64,000 nucleotides of DNA from Natronococcus sp. A-GB1 (GCF_029688845.1 NZ_JARUKW010000001.1:62001-126000); one strand, 5' to 3'. Positions 2,389 to 11,866 are shown, numbered from the stretch's first letter. Made by a program: numbers and translations. The notes: a model not told the origin generated them from the sequence alone.

Positions 2389-4575
2389 TTAGATGTACTG
2401 GATGATCTCGGGCAGTTCGAGCTTCATGCCCTTGCGCTCGCGGATCTCCATGATCTTCTCGCGCTGGAGGGAGTCGGACATGACCTCGAAGCCGGCGTTC
2501 TCCGTGTTCCAGGAGGCGCGGCCCTCGGTCGCGCTACGAATGTCGCTCGCGAAGCCGATCATCTCGCCGACGGGTGCGATCCCCTCGACGACCATCAGGT
2601 CGCCTTCCTGGTACATGTCGTCGACGCGGCCACGTCGACCCTGAATCTCCCCGGAGGCGGCGCCCATGTGGTCGTTGGGGACGTCGATACGAACGTCCTG
2701 CATCGGCTCGAGCATCTTGATGCGGCCGTCGATCAGGGCGTTGTGGAGCGCGTTTCGAGTTGCCGGGATGACCTGTGCCGGACCGCGGTGGATCGTGTCC
2801 TCGTGGAGCCTGGCGTCGTGCAGCCGGATGAGCGTCCCCTGAACCGGCTCGTTTGCGAGGGGGCCGTTGTTGAGGGCGTCCTCGAATCCCTCGATCACGA
2901 GTTCCATCGTCTCGTTCAGGTGCTGGATACCTTTCGTGTCGTCGATGAGGATGTTCGTCCCGTGGATGTGCTCGACCTCCTGAGAGTCGTCCTTCTCCAT
3001 GCCAGCGTTCTGCAGGGCTTCGCGGCGCTCCTGCTCGGGCATATCCATCGACGCCTCGCCGAGCTGGATCGCCTCGACGAGTTCGTCCGACATCGGTTCG
3101 ATGGAGACGTAGAAGCGGTTGTGGCGGTTCGGTGAGATGCCCTCGATCTCGTCGCTGGGTTCCTGGGGCTGCTCGCGGTAGACGACGATCGGTTCACCAG
3201 TGTTGACTGGAATACCCTGATTCTTTTCGATACGCTGGGTGATCACTTCGAGATGAAGTTCTCCCTGTCCGGAGATCAGGTGCTCGCCGGTCTCCTCGTT
3301 GATCTCGATCTGGATCGTCGGATCCTCTTTGGAGACCTGTCGAAGGGTTTCGATCAGCTTTGGCAGGTCGTCCATACTTTTCGCCTCGACGGACTTCGTA
3401 ATGACCGGCTCGGAGATGTGCTCGATCGACTCGAAGGGCGTCATCTCGACGCTCGAGACGGTCGAGCCGGCGATGGCGTCGCGGAGGCCGGTGACGGCCG
3501 CGATGTTACCGGCGGGGACGCGTTCGACTTCCTCGCGCTCGCCACCCATGTAGATGCCGACGGACTGGACGCGGTTCTTACCCGCAGTTCCGGAGACGTA
3601 CAGCTCCTGGCCCTTCTCGAGGGAGCCCGAGAAGACGCGACCGGAGGCGATCTCGCCCGCGTGGGGGTCCATCCCGATGTCGGTGACCATGAAGACGACC
3701 TCGCCGGTCTCGTCGACGAGACGCATCCCTTCCGCGAGCTCGGTCTCGTCGTCACCGCGCCAGATGCGCGGAATACGTCGTGGCTGGGCCTTGACGGGGT
3801 TCGGGAAGTGCTCACAGACCATGTCGAGGACGACGTCCGACAGCGGCGTCCGCTCGTGGAGCTCCTGGCGCTGGTCGTTGCGCTCGAGCTCCATGATGTC
3901 CCCGAAGTCCATACCGGTTGCCTGCATCGACGGCATCGAGACGCCCCACTTGTACAGGGCGGAGCCGAAACCGACGGTGCCGTCCTCGACGGAGACCGTC
4001 CAGTCCTCGATGTCGTCCATGTCCTCGGTCATTCCGCGGATCAGCTCGTTGACGTCGTTGATGACCGAGACGAGTCGACGCTGCATCTCCTCGGGACCCT
4101 CCTGGAGCTCGGAGATCAGGCGGTCGACCTTGTTGATGAACAGGGTCGGCTTGACGCCCTCGCGAAGCGCCTGCCGCAGAACCGTCTCGGTCTGGGGCAT
4201 GGCCCCTTCGACGGCGTCTACGACGACCAGCGCACCGTCGACGGCGCGCATTGCGCGGGTGACGTCGCCGCCGAAGTCGACGTGGCCCGGCGTGTCGATG
4301 AGGTTGATGAGGTGGTTCGTGTCCTCGTACTCGTGGGTCATCGAAACGTTAGCCGCGTCGATGGTGATCCCACGCTCCTGCTCGTCTTCCTCCGTGTCCA
4401 TCGCGAGCTGTTCGCCGGCGGTCTCGTCGGAGATCATGCCGGCTCCCGCGAGGAGGTTGTCCGAAAGGGTCGTTTTCCCGTGATCGACGTGAGCGGCGAT
4501 GGCGATATTCCGGATATGCTCCGGTTCGTCCATCAGCCGTTCACACTCTTGGACGATCTTCTTGCGTCGGCCCAT
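2389..4575 (-). CDS. fusA: Translation elongation factor aEF-2
   Basis: 728 aa, full length for archaeal EF-2, the GTPase that translocates tRNA and mRNA on the ribosome. The G domain shows AHVDHGKT (residues 28-35), the switch segment [10 protein letters not shown]-like at ~66-75, DTPGH (94-98) and NKVD (148-151). The domain IV tip [12 protein letters not shown] is the diphthamide loop, with His596 as the expected diphthamide residue. In most archaea the gene follows rpsL-rpsG; here 5-6 kb of unrelated genes separate them, and aEF-2 begins its own transcription unit at 4575, back to back with the DUF5781 gene. Confidence 0.97.
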
Positions 4576-4766
4576 ATACCCCCCAATACCGGTAGCGGGG
4601 TCAAAAGGGTAGTGTTTCGTCGTCGGCGGGATTCGGCGCGTATCCCGCTCTGGAGCGACGAAAGACTAATTTACGTGAGTGAATGGCACACAGCAATCTC
4701 CCGTTCAGTCGGGAACCGACGACGGGCGTAAGAGCCATACAGTCACGGCCCGTGATACGGCCACAC

Positions 4767-5525
4767 ATGGATATTCGCGTTACCGGCTCGGGTCCGACAG
4801 CCCCTTTTCTCGGTGCCCGAGACCTGTTCGAGACTGAGTACGACCTCTCCCTCCCGGTCGACGTCGAGCTTCGCGACGACCCCGACGTCCGCACCTGGGC
4901 CGGTCACTACGACGACCGACACGTCCTGAACATCTCCCGACAGGCCGCCTCGAGCGCGATGGCTCGTGAGCTCGCCCTCCACGAGTTCGCCCATATGGCC
5001 AGATACGAACAGAGCCATCCCTCCCACACCCAGTCGACCGAGGAGGTGCTGTACCTCGCACTGGCCGGGAAAAGCGTCGAGCGGCGCAAGCTCTCTCATT
5101 GCTACCAGATCGCAAACCACATGAAGGATATCTATGCCGACGACATCACGCTCTCGGTCGGTCCCGGCGAGAAGCTCCTCTCGTTTCTCGAGTCGAGCCT
5201 CGCGGCGGCAGTCGTCGACAGGCCTCAAACCACGCCACGGACCGGCCGAACGAGGCTCTCGGCGAGCGCCGATCCCGAAATTACGGCCGTCAACGCGGCG
5301 TTTGCCCTGGCGCTTGCGGAACGACACGACCTCGTCGAGTCGGATCACCGTCTGTACGACCTCGCCCACGTCGCCGCGGTGGATGCTCCCGACGTGCCGT
5401 TCCACGCGTTCAAGCGTCGGTTTAGGGAACTAACCAGGGACCCAGACTCGAGCAGCTATCGGCAGGTCCTCGTCGACGCGACTCGGGCGTACGTCGGTGA
5501 GGGGGGCTCCTCGACCGAGGCGTGA
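4767..5525 (+). CDS. DUF5781 family protein, zincin-like HExxH motif
   Basis: 252 aa from the ATG at 4767 (MDIRVTGSGPTAPFLGARDL); upstream in-frame ATGs exist but give an unlikely N-terminus. Residues 72-76 read HEFAH inside a helix (ARELALHEFAHMARYEQ), the HExxH zinc site of gluzincin/zincin metallopeptidases, followed by an acidic EEVLYLAL helix that could supply a third ligand. There is no signal peptide or membrane segment, so it is probably cytosolic. The family is, as far as I know, a haloarchaeal/euryarchaeal DUF usually found beside translation genes. Substrate unknown; proteolytic activity is inferred only from the motif. Confidence 0.75.
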   Translation: MDIRVTGSGPTAPFLGARDLFETEYDLSLPVDVELRDDPDVRTWAGHYDDRHVLNISRQAASSAMARELALHEFAHMARYEQSHPSHTQSTEEVLYLALAGKSVERRKLSHCYQIANHMKDIYADDITLSVGPGEKLLSFLESSLAAAVVDRPQTTPRTGRTRLSASADPEITAVNAAFALALAERHDLVESDHRLYDLAHVAAVDAPDVPFHAFKRRFRELTRDPDSSSYRQVLVDATRAYVGEGGSSTEA

Positions 5526-5588
5526 CGTCGTCGTCAGCGACCCGAACGTTTAATGTTTTACACCTCATTAGTATGGAACATACTGGCA

Positions 5589-6290
5589 ATGCTCTCCGAG
5601 ACAGAACCCCGCGGACCGGGCGACGCGTTTATCGAGGAACTATCGCGACTGAAACGCCGCGGAGCGAGCGTCCTCGTCGTCGGGTCGGCCCGGGCGAGCC
5701 AGCAGGCCGAGACCTGCCGCCGGCTACTCGGACACGCCACGGACCGTCCGCGGCGACGCGTTCTGGTTTCGACGACCGGCGAGAGCGCACCGATCGAGTC
5801 GCTCGTCGACGAGACTCCCCTGGACAGCCACCGAATCGTCCGCCACGAGATCGACGTCCGAAGCGCCAGCGCCGCCTCGAGCGCCCACGGACCGGCGCCG
5901 TCGATCGACGTCCCCGTAACGACCACCGAGACGCTCGCCGACCTCGGGATCGAGATCTCGAGCGCGATCGAGTCGTTCGAAACCGCCGCGGACGGGCTCG
6001 AACCCTCCGAGCTACGGATCGGCGTCGACTCGCTGCTCCCGCTGCTCGAGACATACGGCACGGAACGCGTGTTCCGGTTTATCCACCTCACTAACGGACG
6101 GGTAAGAAGAGCCGACGGTATGATTCACTACCGGCTCCCGGTCGATCGGCAGAACGAGGTCGTCCCGGTACTCACGCCCCTTTTCGACGTTGTCGTCGAG
6201 CTTCGGACACACAACGGGGTCTGCCAAGAACGGTGGTCGCTCAAGGACGAATCGCTGTGCTCGGGCTGGATTTCGACGCGACAGCTGTAA
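5589..6290 (+). CDS. DUF7504-type (HTR-like) RecA-fold protein
   Basis: 233 aa from ATG 5589 (MLSETEPRGPGDAFIEELSR). The N-terminal part has a beta-strand/loop pattern like a RecA/KaiC-type core (GASVLVVGSARASQQAETCR) followed by a second strand (RRVLVSTTGES), but there is no intact Walker A lysine, so it resembles the haloarchaeal DUF7504 'HTR-like' family rather than an active ATPase. The C-terminal part (VFRFIHLTNGRVRRADGMIH) matches the layout of that family, which is thought to act in sensing or regulation. It is GC-rich like the core genome and lies 75 bases upstream of the first CHAT gene in the same direction, so co-transcription is likely. Exact function unknown. Confidence 0.65.
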   Translation: MLSETEPRGPGDAFIEELSRLKRRGASVLVVGSARASQQAETCRRLLGHATDRPRRRVLVSTTGESAPIESLVDETPLDSHRIVRHEIDVRSASAASSAHGPAPSIDVPVTTTETLADLGIEISSAIESFETAADGLEPSELRIGVDSLLPLLETYGTERVFRFIHLTNGRVRRADGMIHYRLPVDRQNEVVPVLTPLFDVVVELRTHNGVCQERWSLKDESLCSGWISTRQL

Positions 6291-6365
6291 CGAGAGTATG
6301 TCGGCTGGAGACGCACTGTCCCCGATGGCCGATGCTCGAGGCGAAGTGGCGGGGCAGGTTCTCGG

Positions 6366-8426
6366 ATGAAACCGACGTTCGAGCCGACCGACGACGGACT
6401 CGAGATCATCGATCGGATCGAACGACACCGGTACCGACTGACGACCCACGATCCGGTGTCGATCGACCCCGCCGATACCGACGAGATTCAGTATCCGGTG
6501 GATTCGGCGGTTCGAATCACGACCGATACGCTCACGCTACCGACGACGCACTACGTCTACGTCCGTGACGAGACCGGGGCGATGGTCGCCGAAGTAAAAC
6601 CCGACGAACAGACCTTCCTGCTGAATGGAGAGTATACGCTTGATCTATCTGGACCATTGAAACTCTATGCTTGTGTTAACAGCTCCGTTCAGGTGTACTC
6701 AGACCCTCACCAGACCCACATAGGCTTCAATAGCCGAGTTCCAGTAATTCTTGGTGCTCGTTCGTATCACACCCGCCCAGCAAGAACGATTACAACGACG
6801 GCGGATCCGATCGACATCATGCGAGCCGTTTCGACCTTTGGATCGGCACTCAAAACAACAACACCTGATCGATCGTATCCGACATTACGTGGACATCCAC
6901 CCGCTATTGAGAAAGGGAACGAGCTCGTTATACCTGAAGGATTGGAACAGTGGAAAACCGGTATCGAGATCGAAATACCACCCACACATCGTCACGTCTT
7001 CATCGTTGGACCACTTGCCTACTATCTCGGAGCAGAGGTCGTTCCGGGTTCACAGCCGAGACTTACAACCGGTACTGGTTATTCCTATTCTCTTAGCAGC
7101 CAGAAAGGGTTTGAGTCAACAGTCAAGCGGGTCCTACAGCAAGTTTTCTTTCTCGATTGTGTATCTCGAACAGAAGGGTCCTCACCCCTACCTCTTCATA
7201 ATCGGGATTTGATTGAATCGGCACTTGAATACGATATTCCGACGATATATGAACAATCGATCGGTGAACAGGTGCAAACCTATCTCGAAACTCCGTTTTC
7301 TACTATTGACCCTTATATGCCAGACTGGCAACTCGAAATACGATTAAATCCCAGTCCAGAAACCATTGAGTTTTTGCCCTTCGTATCCAATTATCTTGCG
7401 CCGATACACGTCCAAGACGGCGATCAGCAGGACCCCCCTGGTCTCGGAGACGAAGCGGATGCCATTTCGGATTTTACACGAAGTACTCCTACCCGAAATC
7501 CTGAGATCACCAGAAGCAACGAGCCGACGTCGGATCTCCACGATCGACCTACGTCAGTTGAGCAACGTTGGAAAGGAAAGGACGGTTCAAATATCATGAG
7601 TACGGCACCTCTTTCTGCCTTCAAAAACAACATCGGTCGAAATCCCCGGGATAAACCGATCGAAATTAAAGTAGTTTGTAATGATGTAGATATGAATGAA
7701 GAAGCTAAATCTGTGGATAGGACGTACGGAAACAGAGAAGAACTACCCTTTGATGTTACACTGTATTACAACACTTCTACTCGAGAATTAGAACAAATAC
7801 TGGAAGCCGAGAGTGATTTTCTACATTATATTGGCCATATAGATAAAGAAGGATTTGAATGTTCGGATGGAAGGCTAGACGGGACAACAATCAAATCCTC
7901 CAATGCAAAGGCGTTCCTGTTAAACGCCTGCCAATCTCATGACCAGGGGTTACATTTGATCAAGGCTGGTAGTTTAGGGGGGATTGTTACCTTCGGAAAC
8001 GTCGTGAACAGTGGGGCGGTCAAGATCGGGAGTATAATCGCACAACTGCTGAATCGAGGATTCCCACTCTATGGTGCGTTAGATGTTGCTCAAGAAGAAA
8101 GCATTATGAGTGAACAGTATCGGATGGTTGGTGACGGTCGAACGACTATCGCACAAGCAGAAACGGTCGTTCCAAATGTTTGTTTCATGCAACAGGAAGA
8201 CGACAATACCATTGTCGAAATCAAAATGTACGATTCGGTTCCGGCAGAAAAAGGAGCTGTCTTCACCCCACATTTAGAATCTGTCGATTCCTACTACATA
8301 GTCCCTGGAAGTACAGGGCAGATACGAGTCGATGAGAAGAATCTACGGGATTTCTTGAACGAGGGAAAATTTCCAGTAGTAATCAACGGAACGGTTTACT
8401 GGAGCGACGAACTCGATTCTCCGTGA
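6366..8426 (+). CDS. CHAT-domain (caspase-like) protein, paralog 1
   Basis: 686 aa. The C-terminal third fits a CHAT clan CD cysteine protease: a strand ending in FLHYIGH (His491) and, 31 residues on, a strand FLLNACQS (Cys522), followed by GGIVT and IAQLLNRGFPLYGAL, typical of the C-terminal half of the fold. Residues 1-350 are a conserved but unnamed N-terminal region shared with the second paralog (SALKTTTPDRSYPTLRGHPP, PLAYYLGAE). Residues ~352-400 are a polar, probably disordered linker. No TPR repeats, signal peptide or membrane helix are visible. The first ~235 bases are GC-rich; the rest is markedly AT-rich (for example around 7680-7860). Protease activity is inferred from the dyad; target unknown. 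Confidence 0.8.
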   Translation: MKPTFEPTDDGLEIIDRIERHRYRLTTHDPVSIDPADTDEIQYPVDSAVRITTDTLTLPTTHYVYVRDETGAMVAEVKPDEQTFLLNGEYTLDLSGPLKLYACVNSSVQVYSDPHQTHIGFNSRVPVILGARSYHTRPARTITTTADPIDIMRAVSTFGSALKTTTPDRSYPTLRGHPPAIEKGNELVIPEGLEQWKTGIEIEIPPTHRHVFIVGPLAYYLGAEVVPGSQPRLTTGTGYSYSLSSQKGFESTVKRVLQQVFFLDCVSRTEGSSPLPLHNRDLIESALEYDIPTIYEQSIGEQVQTYLETPFSTIDPYMPDWQLEIRLNPSPETIEFLPFVSNYLAPIHVQDGDQQDPPGLGDEADAISDFTRSTPTRNPEITRSNEPTSDLHDRPTSVEQRWKGKDGSNIMSTAPLSAFKNNIGRNPRDKPIEIKVVCNDVDMNEEAKSVDRTYGNREELPFDVTLYYNTSTRELEQILEAESDFLHYIGHIDKEGFECSDGRLDGTTIKSSNAKAFLLNACQSHDQGLHLIKAGSLGGIVTFGNVVNSGAVKIGSIIAQLLNRGFPLYGALDVAQEESIMSEQYRMVGDGRTTIAQAETVVPNVCFMQQEDDNTIVEIKMYDSVPAEKGAVFTPHLESVDSYYIVPGSTGQIRVDEKNLRDFLNEGKFPVVINGTVYWSDELDSP

Positions 8427-8552
8427 CTATGGCCCTGCGAACGAACCGCCGTTCGCTGCCGCGGTTCCTGCCTGTGAGATGGCCAGTAGCATCGTAAACA
8501 GGACGCCGATCATTCGTGGGTGCTTCTTCAGGTAGTGGGTCAGGTCCGTCAT
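8427..8552 (-). CDS. 41-residue membrane peptide, DUF7503-type
   Basis: A short gene on the minus strand starting at ATG 8552 and ending with TAG at 8427-8429, immediately after the stop codon of CHAT paralog 1 (tail to tail, no spacer). The peptide begins MTDLTHYLKKHPRMIGVLFT, continues with a hydrophobic segment (LLAISQAGTAAA) and ends in NGGSFAGP. One membrane helix or uncleaved signal is predicted, with a basic N-terminus inside. Both its ends match the haloarchaeal DUF7503 small-protein family as I remember it (YLxxHPRMIGVLFT...SQAGT...GP). Too short for most gene callers. Role unknown; the family is often seen near DUF7504 proteins. Confidence 0.72.
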   Translation of the reverse strand: MTDLTHYLKKHPRMIGVLFTMLLAISQAGTAAANGGSFAGP

Positions 8553-8752
8553 GGTACACGTAGACCATTGTGCCGACACGTAATGAATTTATTTTAATAT
8601 AACATACAGGGAAATCATAGATCCATTCTGTATTTTGAAGTTCTAAAAAGTCAAATCAATATAAATAAGAGTCGAGTGCAGGATGTATAATATATAATGC
8701 CGTGTTGGATATACAACAAGGTAACTGCCGAGATCGGCACTCTCTAACTCCA
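8553..8752. promoter_or_regulatory. AT-rich intergenic region with promoter-like boxes before CHAT paralog 2
   Basis: Very AT-rich 200-base spacer between two divergently read genes. TATA-like elements on the plus strand are ATATAAATAAG (about 8659-8669) and TATAATATATAATG (8686-8699), the latter about 55-65 bases before the CHAT2 ATG at 8753. The minus strand carries AATTTATTTTAATATA (reading 8585-8600) upstream of the small membrane peptide gene. So both genes may be served by separate promoters here. Boxes are seen; activity is inferred. Confidence 0.45.
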
Positions 8753-10780
8753 ATGAATCCGATTTTCGAACCTACTGAAGATGGGATAGAAATCATCGAT
8801 ATGACCGAGCGGAGACGGTATCGACTCATCACTGACAACCAAGTCCGAACGAACGAGGTTGAGGTAACACCAACACCATACCCAGTCGACAACGCGGCTG
8901 AGATTATGACTGATTCGATTACACTTCCAACAAAAAGCGCAGTGTATGTTTACGATAGAACGGGATCGATGATCGCGGAGTCGGATCCGCATGGCAAAAC
9001 TGTTCTTCCACAAAACAAATATTCACTCGATATTTCTGGACCGGTGAAATTGTACGCGAACGTCGACAGCAGTGTCGAGATTGGTTTACACTCGAATCAG
9101 ACACATATCGACTTCGGGGATCCTACTGAGGTGGTTCTCGGTGCACGGTCATATCATACCCAGCCAGCAGGGTCGATCACAACAACGGTCGAGCCCGCGG
9201 ACGTAATGCAAGTCGTATCGGCGTTTGGCTCAGCACTCAAAACAACGAAGCCCGAACGCTCCTACCCGACGCTTCGTGGTCATCCCCCAACAATAGAAGT
9301 TGGTCAAAGGTTAGACATCCCTTTCCAGTTCGAGTCGCCGGATACAGGAATCAGCATCGAAGTACCGGCCGATCTCCAGTCGATATTCGTCGTTACGCCG
9401 CTTGCGTACTATCTCGGGGCAAAAGTCAAACATGGGTCCGTTCCGCGCCTGATAATGGATTCAGATCAATCGTTCCCCTTAGCTGGAAGCCGTGAGTTTG
9501 AATCTACTGTCGAACGACTGTTAAAGCAGACTCTCTTTCTGGATTCTCTCGTTAGAGTTGCCGGTCCCTCATCAAATCCTCTTCAGGAACGACACGAACT
9601 TAAGTCGGTGCTACCGTTCAATATGACGGAGGTATACAACCAGTCATCGACCGAGAGACTTCGGACGTATCTTGACGTTCCCTTTGAGATGATCGAATCG
9701 TACCTTCCGGACTGGCGTACATCTGTGCTGCAGCCGACCGAGGACAAGATTCCGTATCTCCCGTTTTTGGCTCAGGACCTGACAGTCGTCAAAACCCAAT
9801 CAGCCCAGTCCAGAGACACCGAAAACAACCCAGTAACAGGGAAGGTTCGAACGAACATGACCACATCTGCCGAAGTTCTGGATCAAAGCATCGAACAGCG
9901 TTGGACCGATGGACGACTCCCACAGATTACGGCCAAGGTACCACTTTCGGCGTTTTACAATGACATCAATAGAACGGTTCGAGCAGATCCAATCGAAATT
10001 CAGGTGGTATGTAACGACCCGGGAATGGGCGATGAACTCGTAGCCCTCTATAGTACATACGGCAGTCGCGAGGATCTTCCGTTCGAAGTCAGGACACATC
10101 GTGAACTTACGGTATCTGAATTAGCAGCACTTTTTGAACAAACAAGTGACTTTGTTCACTACATCGGCCACACGGAGAGAGAGGGGTTTAGATGTACTGA
10201 CGGACACCTAGACGCCTGGTCGCTTGAAACCGCCGGCATGGATGCATTTTTGCTCAATTCCTGCCAATCGTATGACCAGGGTGTAGCACTTCTTGAAAAG
10301 GGAAGCATCGGAGGGATCGTAACACTAGACGATATCGACAATATCGATGCGATACATACTGGAAGCACGATTGCTCAGCTACTGAATCAAGGCTTTCCAC
10401 TCTACGCAGCAGCTAATATCGTGCGTGAGGAGTGTACCGCTGGAGAAAGCTATCAAATCATCGGTAAGGGAGCTACGGCTGTCTCTCAGTCCAGAGCGGG
10501 TCTACCGATACGGTTTTCGATCTCCCGCGATGGAGAGTGTCATCAACTCCGCTTGAAGGTGTACACGAAGGGTACGTTCCAGATTGGTAGTACGTATCAA
10601 CCACATCTCAGTTCAACGGACGCCTACCATCTGATCCCGAAGGAGATCGGGCCTGTCCAAATCGTGAGGGCGGACCTCCCAAAGATCACCGATATGAGCG
10701 AGGCTGCTGTTCTTTTGGAGGATGGTATCAGGATGGGCGACGAGATCAAATTCAAAGAGATAGACCTATTCGATCGATAG
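8753..10780 (+). CDS. CHAT-domain (caspase-like) protein, paralog 2
   Basis: 675 aa from ATG 8753, chosen because MNPIFEPTEDGIEIID aligns with the start of paralog 1; the frame also opens 51 bases earlier. The predicted catalytic pair is His473 in FVHYIGH and Cys504 in FLLNSCQS, again 31 residues apart, followed by GGIVTLDDID and IAQLLNQGFPLYAA. The N-terminal ~340 residues align along their length with paralog 1 (SALKTTKPERSYPTLRGHPP, PLAYYLGAK). Its linker is shorter. Base composition is intermediate and even across the gene, unlike paralog 1. The pair looks like an old duplication that diverged while keeping the dyad, so both are probably active. Substrate unknown. Confidence 0.8.
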   Translation: MNPIFEPTEDGIEIIDMTERRRYRLITDNQVRTNEVEVTPTPYPVDNAAEIMTDSITLPTKSAVYVYDRTGSMIAESDPHGKTVLPQNKYSLDISGPVKLYANVDSSVEIGLHSNQTHIDFGDPTEVVLGARSYHTQPAGSITTTVEPADVMQVVSAFGSALKTTKPERSYPTLRGHPPTIEVGQRLDIPFQFESPDTGISIEVPADLQSIFVVTPLAYYLGAKVKHGSVPRLIMDSDQSFPLAGSREFESTVERLLKQTLFLDSLVRVAGPSSNPLQERHELKSVLPFNMTEVYNQSSTERLRTYLDVPFEMIESYLPDWRTSVLQPTEDKIPYLPFLAQDLTVVKTQSAQSRDTENNPVTGKVRTNMTTSAEVLDQSIEQRWTDGRLPQITAKVPLSAFYNDINRTVRADPIEIQVVCNDPGMGDELVALYSTYGSREDLPFEVRTHRELTVSELAALFEQTSDFVHYIGHTEREGFRCTDGHLDAWSLETAGMDAFLLNSCQSYDQGVALLEKGSIGGIVTLDDIDNIDAIHTGSTIAQLLNQGFPLYAAANIVREECTAGESYQIIGKGATAVSQSRAGLPIRFSISRDGECHQLRLKVYTKGTFQIGSTYQPHLSSTDAYHLIPKEIGPVQIVRADLPKITDMSEAAVLLEDGIRMGDEIKFKEIDLFDR

Positions 10781-10826
10781 TAGCGACTATGCAGATCTGC
10801 CTCGAAGATCGAAAAGTGAAAACGTC

Positions 10827-11435
10827 TTAGCGCGCGGCAGCCGCGACGCGTTCTTTCTCTTCTTTCTGGCTGATCGCGTACGTCTGCACGTCGTAGTTAG
10901 CTGCACCGACGAGCTGGTTCGCGATCGCTTCCGGAACCGACGTAGAGGTCTTGAACGAATCCTTGTAGACGCCCTCGGCGAGCATCATCAGCGCCTGGTC
11001 GACGCGACGCTGCGGTGCGACGTCGACCGCCTTCGGCACCGAGATCCCGCCGTACTTCAGTCGAACCGTCTCCTCGCGAGGCGCGGCGTTCTCGACGGCC
11101 GTCACGAGTACCTGCACCGGGTTCTCCTCGGTGCGCTCGTGGATGAGTTCGAACGCGTCGCGGACGAAGTTCAGGGACTGCTGTTTCTTGCCCGTGTTAT
11201 CCTCGGTCTGCATCAAGCGGTTGATGAAGCGTTCGACGATCGAGATCTGGGACTTCTTGAACTGCTTGCTGGCGTGACGGCCAGCGGTGTGGGCGACCGG
11301 CGTCACCTGAATGTAGCGCTCGGTCGAGGGATCGGCGTACTCGATCTCGCCCATCTCCCACGTTCCGAACAGCTTCGCGGAGACGTCAGCGTCGCCAGCG
11401 GGTGCGTCGGGATCGGGTTGGTCTTCTGCAGCCAT
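10827..11435 (-). CDS. rpsG: 30S ribosomal protein uS7
   Basis: 202 aa with the S7 core starting near residue 20 (KLFGTWEMGEIEYADPSTER), the RNA-binding segment KKSQISIVERFINRLMQ, and VEPRR-like VDVAPQRRVDQALMML in the expected place. The acidic N-terminal extension (DQPDPDAPAGDADV) is typical of halophilic archaea. It starts two bases after the rpsL stop and is surely co-transcribed with it. It nucleates folding of the 3' major domain of 16S rRNA. In most relatives aEF-2 follows; here the CHAT island does. Confidence 0.97.
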   Translation of the reverse strand: MAAEDQPDPDAPAGDADVSAKLFGTWEMGEIEYADPSTERYIQVTPVAHTAGRHASKQFKKSQISIVERFINRLMQTEDNTGKKQQSLNFVRDAFELIHERTEENPVQVLVTAVENAAPREETVRLKYGGISVPKAVDVAPQRRVDQALMMLAEGVYKDSFKTSTSVPEAIANQLVGAANYDVQTYAISQKEEKERVAAAAR

Positions 11436-11437
11436 CG

Positions 11438-11866
11438 TTATCGCACCGGTTTCTCTGCGTTTCCGCGAACCAGTTCGATGAGCGAGACGCCGTTGACCTT
11501 CTCGACCTTGTAGTTGACACCCGAGAGGTCACCCATCGCACGACCCTTCGCCCCGCCGATACCGGCGATGGTCACTTCGTCGTGTTCGTCGATGAACGAA
11601 ATTGCGCCGTCACCGGGACAGAACGCGGTGACCTGCTTGCCGTTCTTGATCAGCTGGACGCGAACACACTTTCGGATCGCCGAGTTGGGCTGTTTCGCTT
11701 CGATGCCGACCTTTTCGAGTACGATACCTCGAGCCTGAGGGGCCCCCTCGAGGGGGTCGGACTTCTCGCGAAGTCCACGGGCGCGGCGCGCGTAGTCCGA
11801 GTCGGACCACCGCTGGTTCTGGCGGTCCTTCTTGAGCTTGCGCGCGGCGTACTTGCCGTTTGCCAT
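11438..11866 (-). CDS. rpsL: 30S ribosomal protein uS12
   Basis: 142 aa from ATG 11866 ([20 protein letters not shown]). The decoding-centre loop [15 protein letters not shown] and the C-terminal signature [18 protein letters not shown] identify uS12. A start 33 bases upstream is possible in the frame but would overlap the promoter box and add residues absent from the family. The gene heads the rpsL-rpsG pair and probably has its own promoter in addition to read-through from the RNA polymerase operon. Confidence 0.97.

Follow-up and report, generated by a model that had tools for sequence, protein, structure and literature searches.

CHAT proteins connect caspases and separase with prokaryotic immunity, and to our knowledge the inputs that govern them have been identified in no more than a few bacterial systems. 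Here we analyze a group of four genes at positions 5589-10780 of a 64,000-nucleotide stretch of the genome of Natronococcus sp. A-GB1 (NZ_JARUKW010000001.1:62001-126000; the whole stretch is referred to as the window), comprising a DUF7504 gene, the genes of two paralogous CHAT relatives (CHAT1 and CHAT2) and, antisense between these two, a DUF7503 gene for a peptide of 41 residues. The CHAT gene and the convergent peptide gene form a recurrent unit, and we propose that the variable tail of the peptide may control the CHAT protein. In type III CRISPR systems, CHAT proteases cut a dedicated partner protein (Csx29/Csx30, PMC10028731). In the SHP/Rgg systems of Firmicutes, which belong to the RRNPP family, the group III peptide genes lie downstream of the receptor gene in convergent orientation, and mature SHPs correspond to the C-terminal ends of their precursors (PMC3679016). 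In the ComQXPA pherotype clusters of Bacillus, comQ retains only 65-70% nucleotide identity (PMC4408185).

With the CHAT proteases (PF12770, clan CD; SAVED-CHAT/CalpL, Csx29/TPR-CHAT, separase) the haloarchaeal proteins share the predicted fold, the order of a His and then a Cys after their strands, and an invariant dyad. They differ in their sequence, which has diverged to the point that the window members fall below every Pfam model, in an N-terminal part of their own (~390 residues) where the others carry SAVED or TPR, and in their partner, which would be a tiny variable peptide and not a CRISPR complex. With SHP/Rgg they would have in common a tiny precursor gene adjoining the receptor gene, a C-terminal mature peptide and many copies per genome (PMC3679016); on the other hand, the haloarchaeal receptor would be a protease and not a TPR transcription regulator, and the tail is marked by a fixed C-terminal GP. 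Pfam scans of the window proteins and their homologs revealed no TPR in the CHAT partners, and therefore the pair may work like SHP/Rgg without being a member of that group. The likeness to ComQXPA is a divergent block in otherwise close strains (PMC4408185), as in the CHAT1 body (52-70% identity) described below; however, the proteins are unrelated, ComX carries an isoprenyl modification and its sensor is a membrane kinase, and all genes are on one strand (PMC4008528). By analogy, the haloarchaeal pair would work most like SHP/Rgg and ComQXPA, while belonging to neither. Pfam gives no function for DUF7503, DUF7504 or the neighboring DUF5781, the literature searched contained no mention of these families and no description of a CHAT-DUF7503 pair, and haloarchaeal cell-cell signalling was called largely unexplored in 2023 (PMC10223598).

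A recurrent pair of convergent genes

At least 109 of 143 DUF7503 genes face a convergent CHAT gene, with a median gap of 79 nucleotides measured from match to match. Inspection of a further 13 unresolved cases showed that 11 of them also face CHAT, three of these CHAT genes being split into several frames. Seen from the other side, an antisense open reading frame (ORF) ending in GP lies beside 76 of 128 CHAT genes, compared to 2/128 in the sense-strand control. The genome from which the window was taken contains a second complete triad of identical order and orientation (C6:25214-28048), and the pairing is kept at the S7/EF-2 locus of the window, at a second locus next to AglB, on plasmids, and across families. 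The sequence-only reading, which had already suggested the peptide as a partner of the protease, named the gene neighborhood in relatives as a test of a shared system; this neighborhood is not random, and the partnership is supported by the recurrent convergent pairing. DUF7504, which had been cast as a required sensor, is an optional component, because no more than 50 of 135 CHAT loci have it immediately upstream; it was always present at the S7 locus examined.

CHAT homologs are present in 125/125 genomes of the family, with 1 to ~10 copies each, and a search of the class Halobacteria with CHAT2 as the query retrieved them from 365 of 391 genomes and 78 of 86 genera. DUF7503 was found in 121/125 family genomes, and in a phylum-wide sample the genomes with DUF7503, among the matches listed, are all of one order; both DUF7503 and DUF7504 occur in Haloferax volcanii. 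Because of this near-universal occurrence, CHAT counts among the core families of the class and is not the rare island that had been supposed, and at the S7 locus it occupies a fixed position between DUF5781/EF-2 and S7 in the relatives examined. CHAT homologs occur in 25 plasmid records; none was found in phages or viral contigs, and PADLOC gave no match to known defence models. With a distribution that is not patchy either, the proposed defence module loses its ground, and a role in antiviral defence is not supported.

The identification of the two large proteins as CHAT relatives is based on fold and catalytic residues. CHAT1 (6366-8426, plus strand, 686 residues) is the partner of the peptide; CHAT2 (8753-10780, plus strand, 675 residues) is a tandem copy without a peptide of its own. 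Neither matches any CHAT model of Pfam or NCBIfam, a search of the window's whole genome with PF12770 found nothing, and comparison of the CHAT profile with the sequences of solved structures gave nothing meaningful. Nonetheless, 16 of 47 homologs match PF12770 (best E-value 1.7e-4) and two match the caspase-like family C25. A model of the CHAT2 domain (residues 390-641, built from an alignment that included the CHAT1 domain) is of modest quality, with a predicted template modelling score (pTM) of 0.62 and a predicted local distance difference test score (pLDDT) of 55.6. Foldseek ranked SAVED-CHAT first among its matches (E-value 1.2e-8), followed by caspases, DdvA, Csx29, gingipain and separase, and VIA-align matched it to 8tl0 over 171 residues at Z 12.2, to Csx29 at Z 10.8 and to separase at Z ~10.5. 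On account of these matches of the domain model we take the CHAT fold as settled, and since no profile match was obtained we describe the window proteins as divergent relatives by modelled fold and dyad, below the Pfam cut-off, and not as members of the Pfam model. A full-length AlphaFold model built from 4 sequences (pLDDT 46.7, pTM 0.28) was discarded for claims on the fold.

The dyad comprises His491 and Cys522 in CHAT1 (codons 7836-7838 and 7929-7931, invariant alignment columns) and His473 and Cys504 in CHAT2 (codons 10169-10171 and 10262-10264, conserved columns), as the sequence-only reading had proposed together with the fold, and 111 of 114 homologs retain both columns, which goes well beyond what chance would produce. 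CHAT1 and CHAT2 may be active proteases. The sole real exception to the dyad is a homolog (L133, G132:C2 near 1472583) that has kept the N-terminal part and lost the whole catalytic domain, i.e. a natural pseudo-enzyme. The paralogs were initially reported as alike over their N-terminal ~340-350 residues; this similarity is real, but it runs from end to end (683 residues, 43% identity), with the linker near residues 350-400 alone differing, and only residues 1-85 behave as a conserved anchor among the Natronococcus genomes.

The peptide tail and the exchanged CHAT1 body

The DUF7503 gene (8427-8552, minus strand; PF24335, E-value 1.4e-20) encodes MTDLTHYLKKHPRMIGVLFTMLLAISQAGTAAA followed by NGGSFAGP, and its stop codon abuts that of CHAT1. 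The first 33 residues (8454-8552) are conserved and end in an A-x-A-type site; the variable C-terminal tail of 8 residues (8430-8453) is the predicted active peptide. The N-terminal part (..YL..HPRM.GVLFT..LLSQAG) is strongly conserved across the 95 distinct DUF7503 genes compared, 93 of which fit the -3/-1 rule of signal peptidase at positions HP+20 and HP+22, leaving 7-9 residues after the site. The hydrophobic part of the peptide looks like a Sec-like signal that would be cleaved off. At positions -8 to -3 the tail itself reaches entropies of 2.6-3.3 bits, and in 79 of the 95 genes it ends in GP. In the window, positions 8466-8552 are 93-94% identical in nucleotide sequence to the three nearest relatives, and in comparisons of 194 close pairs the tail shows a nonsynonymous difference of 0.41, vs 0.063 for the signal part.

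Further variants come from one genus (g60), in which two genomes retain the ordinary form (..AAGNSGAISGP), while at the same locus six genomes have lost the hydrophobic core and carry a 13-residue unit, such as YTADGNGGGISGP, in 13, 7, 10, 4, 5 and 7 copies, with a regular TAD-GN or NAD-GN junction between units and GP at the end. Moreover, at loci without DUF7503, unrelated tiny ORFs at the equivalent place also end in GP, as in ..STYSGP at the third CHAT locus of the window's genome and ..AKRVSIYGGP, ..AKRVSSYGGP and ..AKRVSTYGGP elsewhere. Since the tail has been amplified where the membrane segment was lost, we argue that the tail, and not the membrane span, is the likely functional product; the earlier description as a membrane peptide fits only a signal-like part that some genomes lack. 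We also considered that the GP end might be a by-product of overlap with CHAT codons, and rejected this, as GP persists where the stop codon of the peptide is 50-150 nucleotides from that of CHAT.

The variability of the tail has its counterpart in CHAT1. Comparison of the four closest genomes (that of the window, G087, G091 and G092) revealed 87-99% identity in the conserved flanks and anchors, i.e. DUF5781, DUF7504, CHAT1 residues 1-85, the signal part and S7. CHAT1 residues 86-686 are only 52-70% identical and the tail stretch 50-72%, with the exception of G087 and G092, in which both body (83-86%) and tail (89%) are alike. Relative to the three nearest relatives of the window, the anchor at 6366-6620 retains 88-95% identity with a guanine-plus-cytosine (GC) content of 60%, compared to 52-68% identity and 46% GC in the body at 6621-8423. 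The tail follows CHAT1 and not CHAT2, because G087 and G091 have CHAT2 in common (~90%) and share neither CHAT1 nor the tail. In the tree of the flanks the window groups with G087, G091 and G092 (support 100/100), whereas in the tree of the CHAT1 body it groups with G089 (100/100), and the approximately unbiased (AU) test rejects the flank clade for the CHAT1 body (p-AU 4.6e-7). The CHAT1 body of the window has been exchanged. A single recombinant genome as an artefact behind the divergence was rejected, as several Natronococcus pairs show the pattern. Over 84 pairs, a partial Mantel test that controlled for the signal part and residues 1-85 associated the tail with the CHAT body (r 0.16-0.33, p 0.001), while the association of the signal part with the CHAT body was weak or absent (r up to 0.08). 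The CHAT1 body and CHAT2 (within 6621-10777) are AT-rich, with 46-50% GC vs 60-66% around them, as in 8/8 Natronococcus relatives compared.

A polymorphic peptide and its putative receptor

We propose, with a probability of roughly 0.45, that the best explanation of these observations is a polymorphic pair of ligand and receptor, the processed tail controlling the CHAT protease that is cognate to it. According to this proposal, the precursor would be made and its signal removed, releasing a free peptide whose length of 7-9 residues is suggested by the position of the site. The peptide would then meet the CHAT protein and set its protease activity, on or off, a step to which the strict pairing, the hypervariability and the exchange all point, and the tail would play toward CHAT the part that a peptide pheromone plays toward its receptor. 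At loci that have DUF7504, this protein could perhaps be a further regulator of CHAT. CHAT1 residues 1-85 and the signal part could serve as conserved anchors for recombination; since the tail-to-tail layout joins the variable ends of both genes, a single short tract of recombination can exchange the two together. It is possible, and we put it forward somewhat more tentatively, that this represents a class-wide form of archaeal peptide communication or self-recognition, in which a lineage-specific GP-ending peptide is read by its cognate CHAT and the pair is swapped between strains, resembling pherotypes with a protease as the receptor.

Several observations weigh against this proposal. As many as 16 of the 95 DUF7503 tails lack the GP end, GP peptides are absent from the CHAT2 copies and from most of the divergent CHAT members (in the window, no GP-ending ORF was found downstream of CHAT2), and the repeat and non-DUF7503 forms have no evident signal. 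CHAT also has no evident signal and should be cytoplasmic while the tail would be exported, so that re-import would be needed. The ratio of nonsynonymous to synonymous differences (pN/pS) in the tail is 0.55 with saturated pS, which indicates hypervariability without proving positive selection; the saturation of pS precludes any such claim. Finally, the Mantel correlation peaks for the part of CHAT1 nearest the tail, and since the tail adjoins the 3' end of CHAT1, physical linkage explains some or all of the co-inheritance.

This last gradient is what would be expected if the two genes had no functional tie at all, and a small gene simply hitchhiked with a fast-evolving, horizontally exchanged CHAT gene, the GP end acting perhaps in translation termination. 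The AT-rich CHAT bodies of all Natronococcus genomes agree with this, but the pairing recurs at several genomic sites (S7/EF-2, AglB, plasmids) and across families, and different tiny ORFs have converged on one C-terminus and one place, which makes mere hitchhiking highly improbable. Scarcely more probable is a membrane tether or local regulator, where DUF7503 would stay in the membrane as a single span and anchor or inhibit CHAT there, with the tail as a spacer; the hydrophobic segment is indeed the best conserved one (HP, G, L and F invariant or nearly so), yet it is lost in the six g60 genomes that multiplied the tail and is also absent from the tiny ORFs elsewhere.

The strict pairing also suits another relationship, in which CHAT is the protease that cleaves the peptide or the precursor with repeats; the tail would then be either a product of the reaction or waste, or else cleavage would set the peptide free as an effector. 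There are precedents among CHAT relatives for action on a co-encoded protein, as in Csx29/Csx30 (PMC10028731; structure match 8eey), and the junctions of the g60 repeats would suit cleavage between copies. However, signal peptidase is already a suitable enzyme for the conserved A-x-A site, and a substrate would be expected to show a conserved cleavage site, whereas the residues nearest the C-terminus, GP aside, are the most variable. We consider this role of the peptide unlikely, though worth keeping in mind. It is tempting to read the allele exchange and the extreme divergence among close relatives as marks of conflict, allorecognition or a toxin-antitoxin-like function, with CHAT as a killing or dormancy effector held by its own peptide and cells with another allele harmed. 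The CHAT fold is common in conflict systems, and the tandem extra CHAT copies and those on plasmid records would also fit, but against this stand the near-universal occurrence and fixed position of the family and the lack of PADLOC matches and viral homologs, and we regard a conflict function as decidedly unlikely.

If the peptide is indeed the input of a ligand-receptor pair, then nearly every haloarchaeon would possess a caspase-like protease gated by a peptide, and peptide signalling would extend to the archaea, from which we know no example of such signal-and-receptor communication. The pair is small, it occurs in genetically tractable haloarchaea, and the proposal predicts a peptide of 8-9 residues open to synthesis. 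Judged from sequence comparisons, what appears new is a pair of protease and peptide that spans an archaeal class and has a locus resembling those of pherotypes, which would make it more interesting than the sequence-only reading stated.

DUF7504 and further features of the loci

All four genes of that reading are present, with the peptide on the minus strand, and the group is flanked by DUF5781/EF-2 on one side and ribosomal protein S7 on the other. The DUF7504 protein (5589-6290, plus strand, 233 residues; PF24336, E-value 2.4e-55) may alternatively start at an in-frame ATG at 5553. None of 56 members of the family contains the Walker A motif GxxxxGK[ST]. A protein of the window's genome (L036, G000:C57:184623-185135) matches both PF24336 (5.3e-34) and KaiC PF06745 (4.7e-6). 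Searches of DUF7504 against solved structures yielded weak KaiC matches (E-value 0.6-0.7) and chance matches to S3a, and hhalign against three KaiC domains was not significant; because direct profile comparison failed to reach significance, it is the bridging protein that carries the KaiC link. DUF7504 may be a degenerate relative of the KaiC/RecA-type ATPases that lacks Walker A. An Rfam scan of 4500-11500 found nothing, and a promoter and terminator scan with bacterial models is uninformative for archaea.

The tandem CHAT2 is missing from the corresponding locus in several other genera. The second conserved CHAT-DUF7503 site (L058, L064, L075 and part of L069; Natrialbaceae-like) lies beside a PF04018 undecaprenyl-phosphate translocase-like gene and AglB (STT3), of N-glycosylation, and many of the tails at this site end in a common QVGP. 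In another genome (L137, G030:C1:873000-886000), three tandem CHAT homologs are found without GP peptides, and two antisense ORFs there end in TDAHAAG. DUF7503 genes occur in side-by-side pairs at G124:C19:2670-2931 and G134:C1:486534-486796. In a genome with 17 CHAT matches (G217; L142, L143), the tiny ORFs beside CHAT end in ..SGPTNP and ..KGPSNP, which are variations of the GP end.

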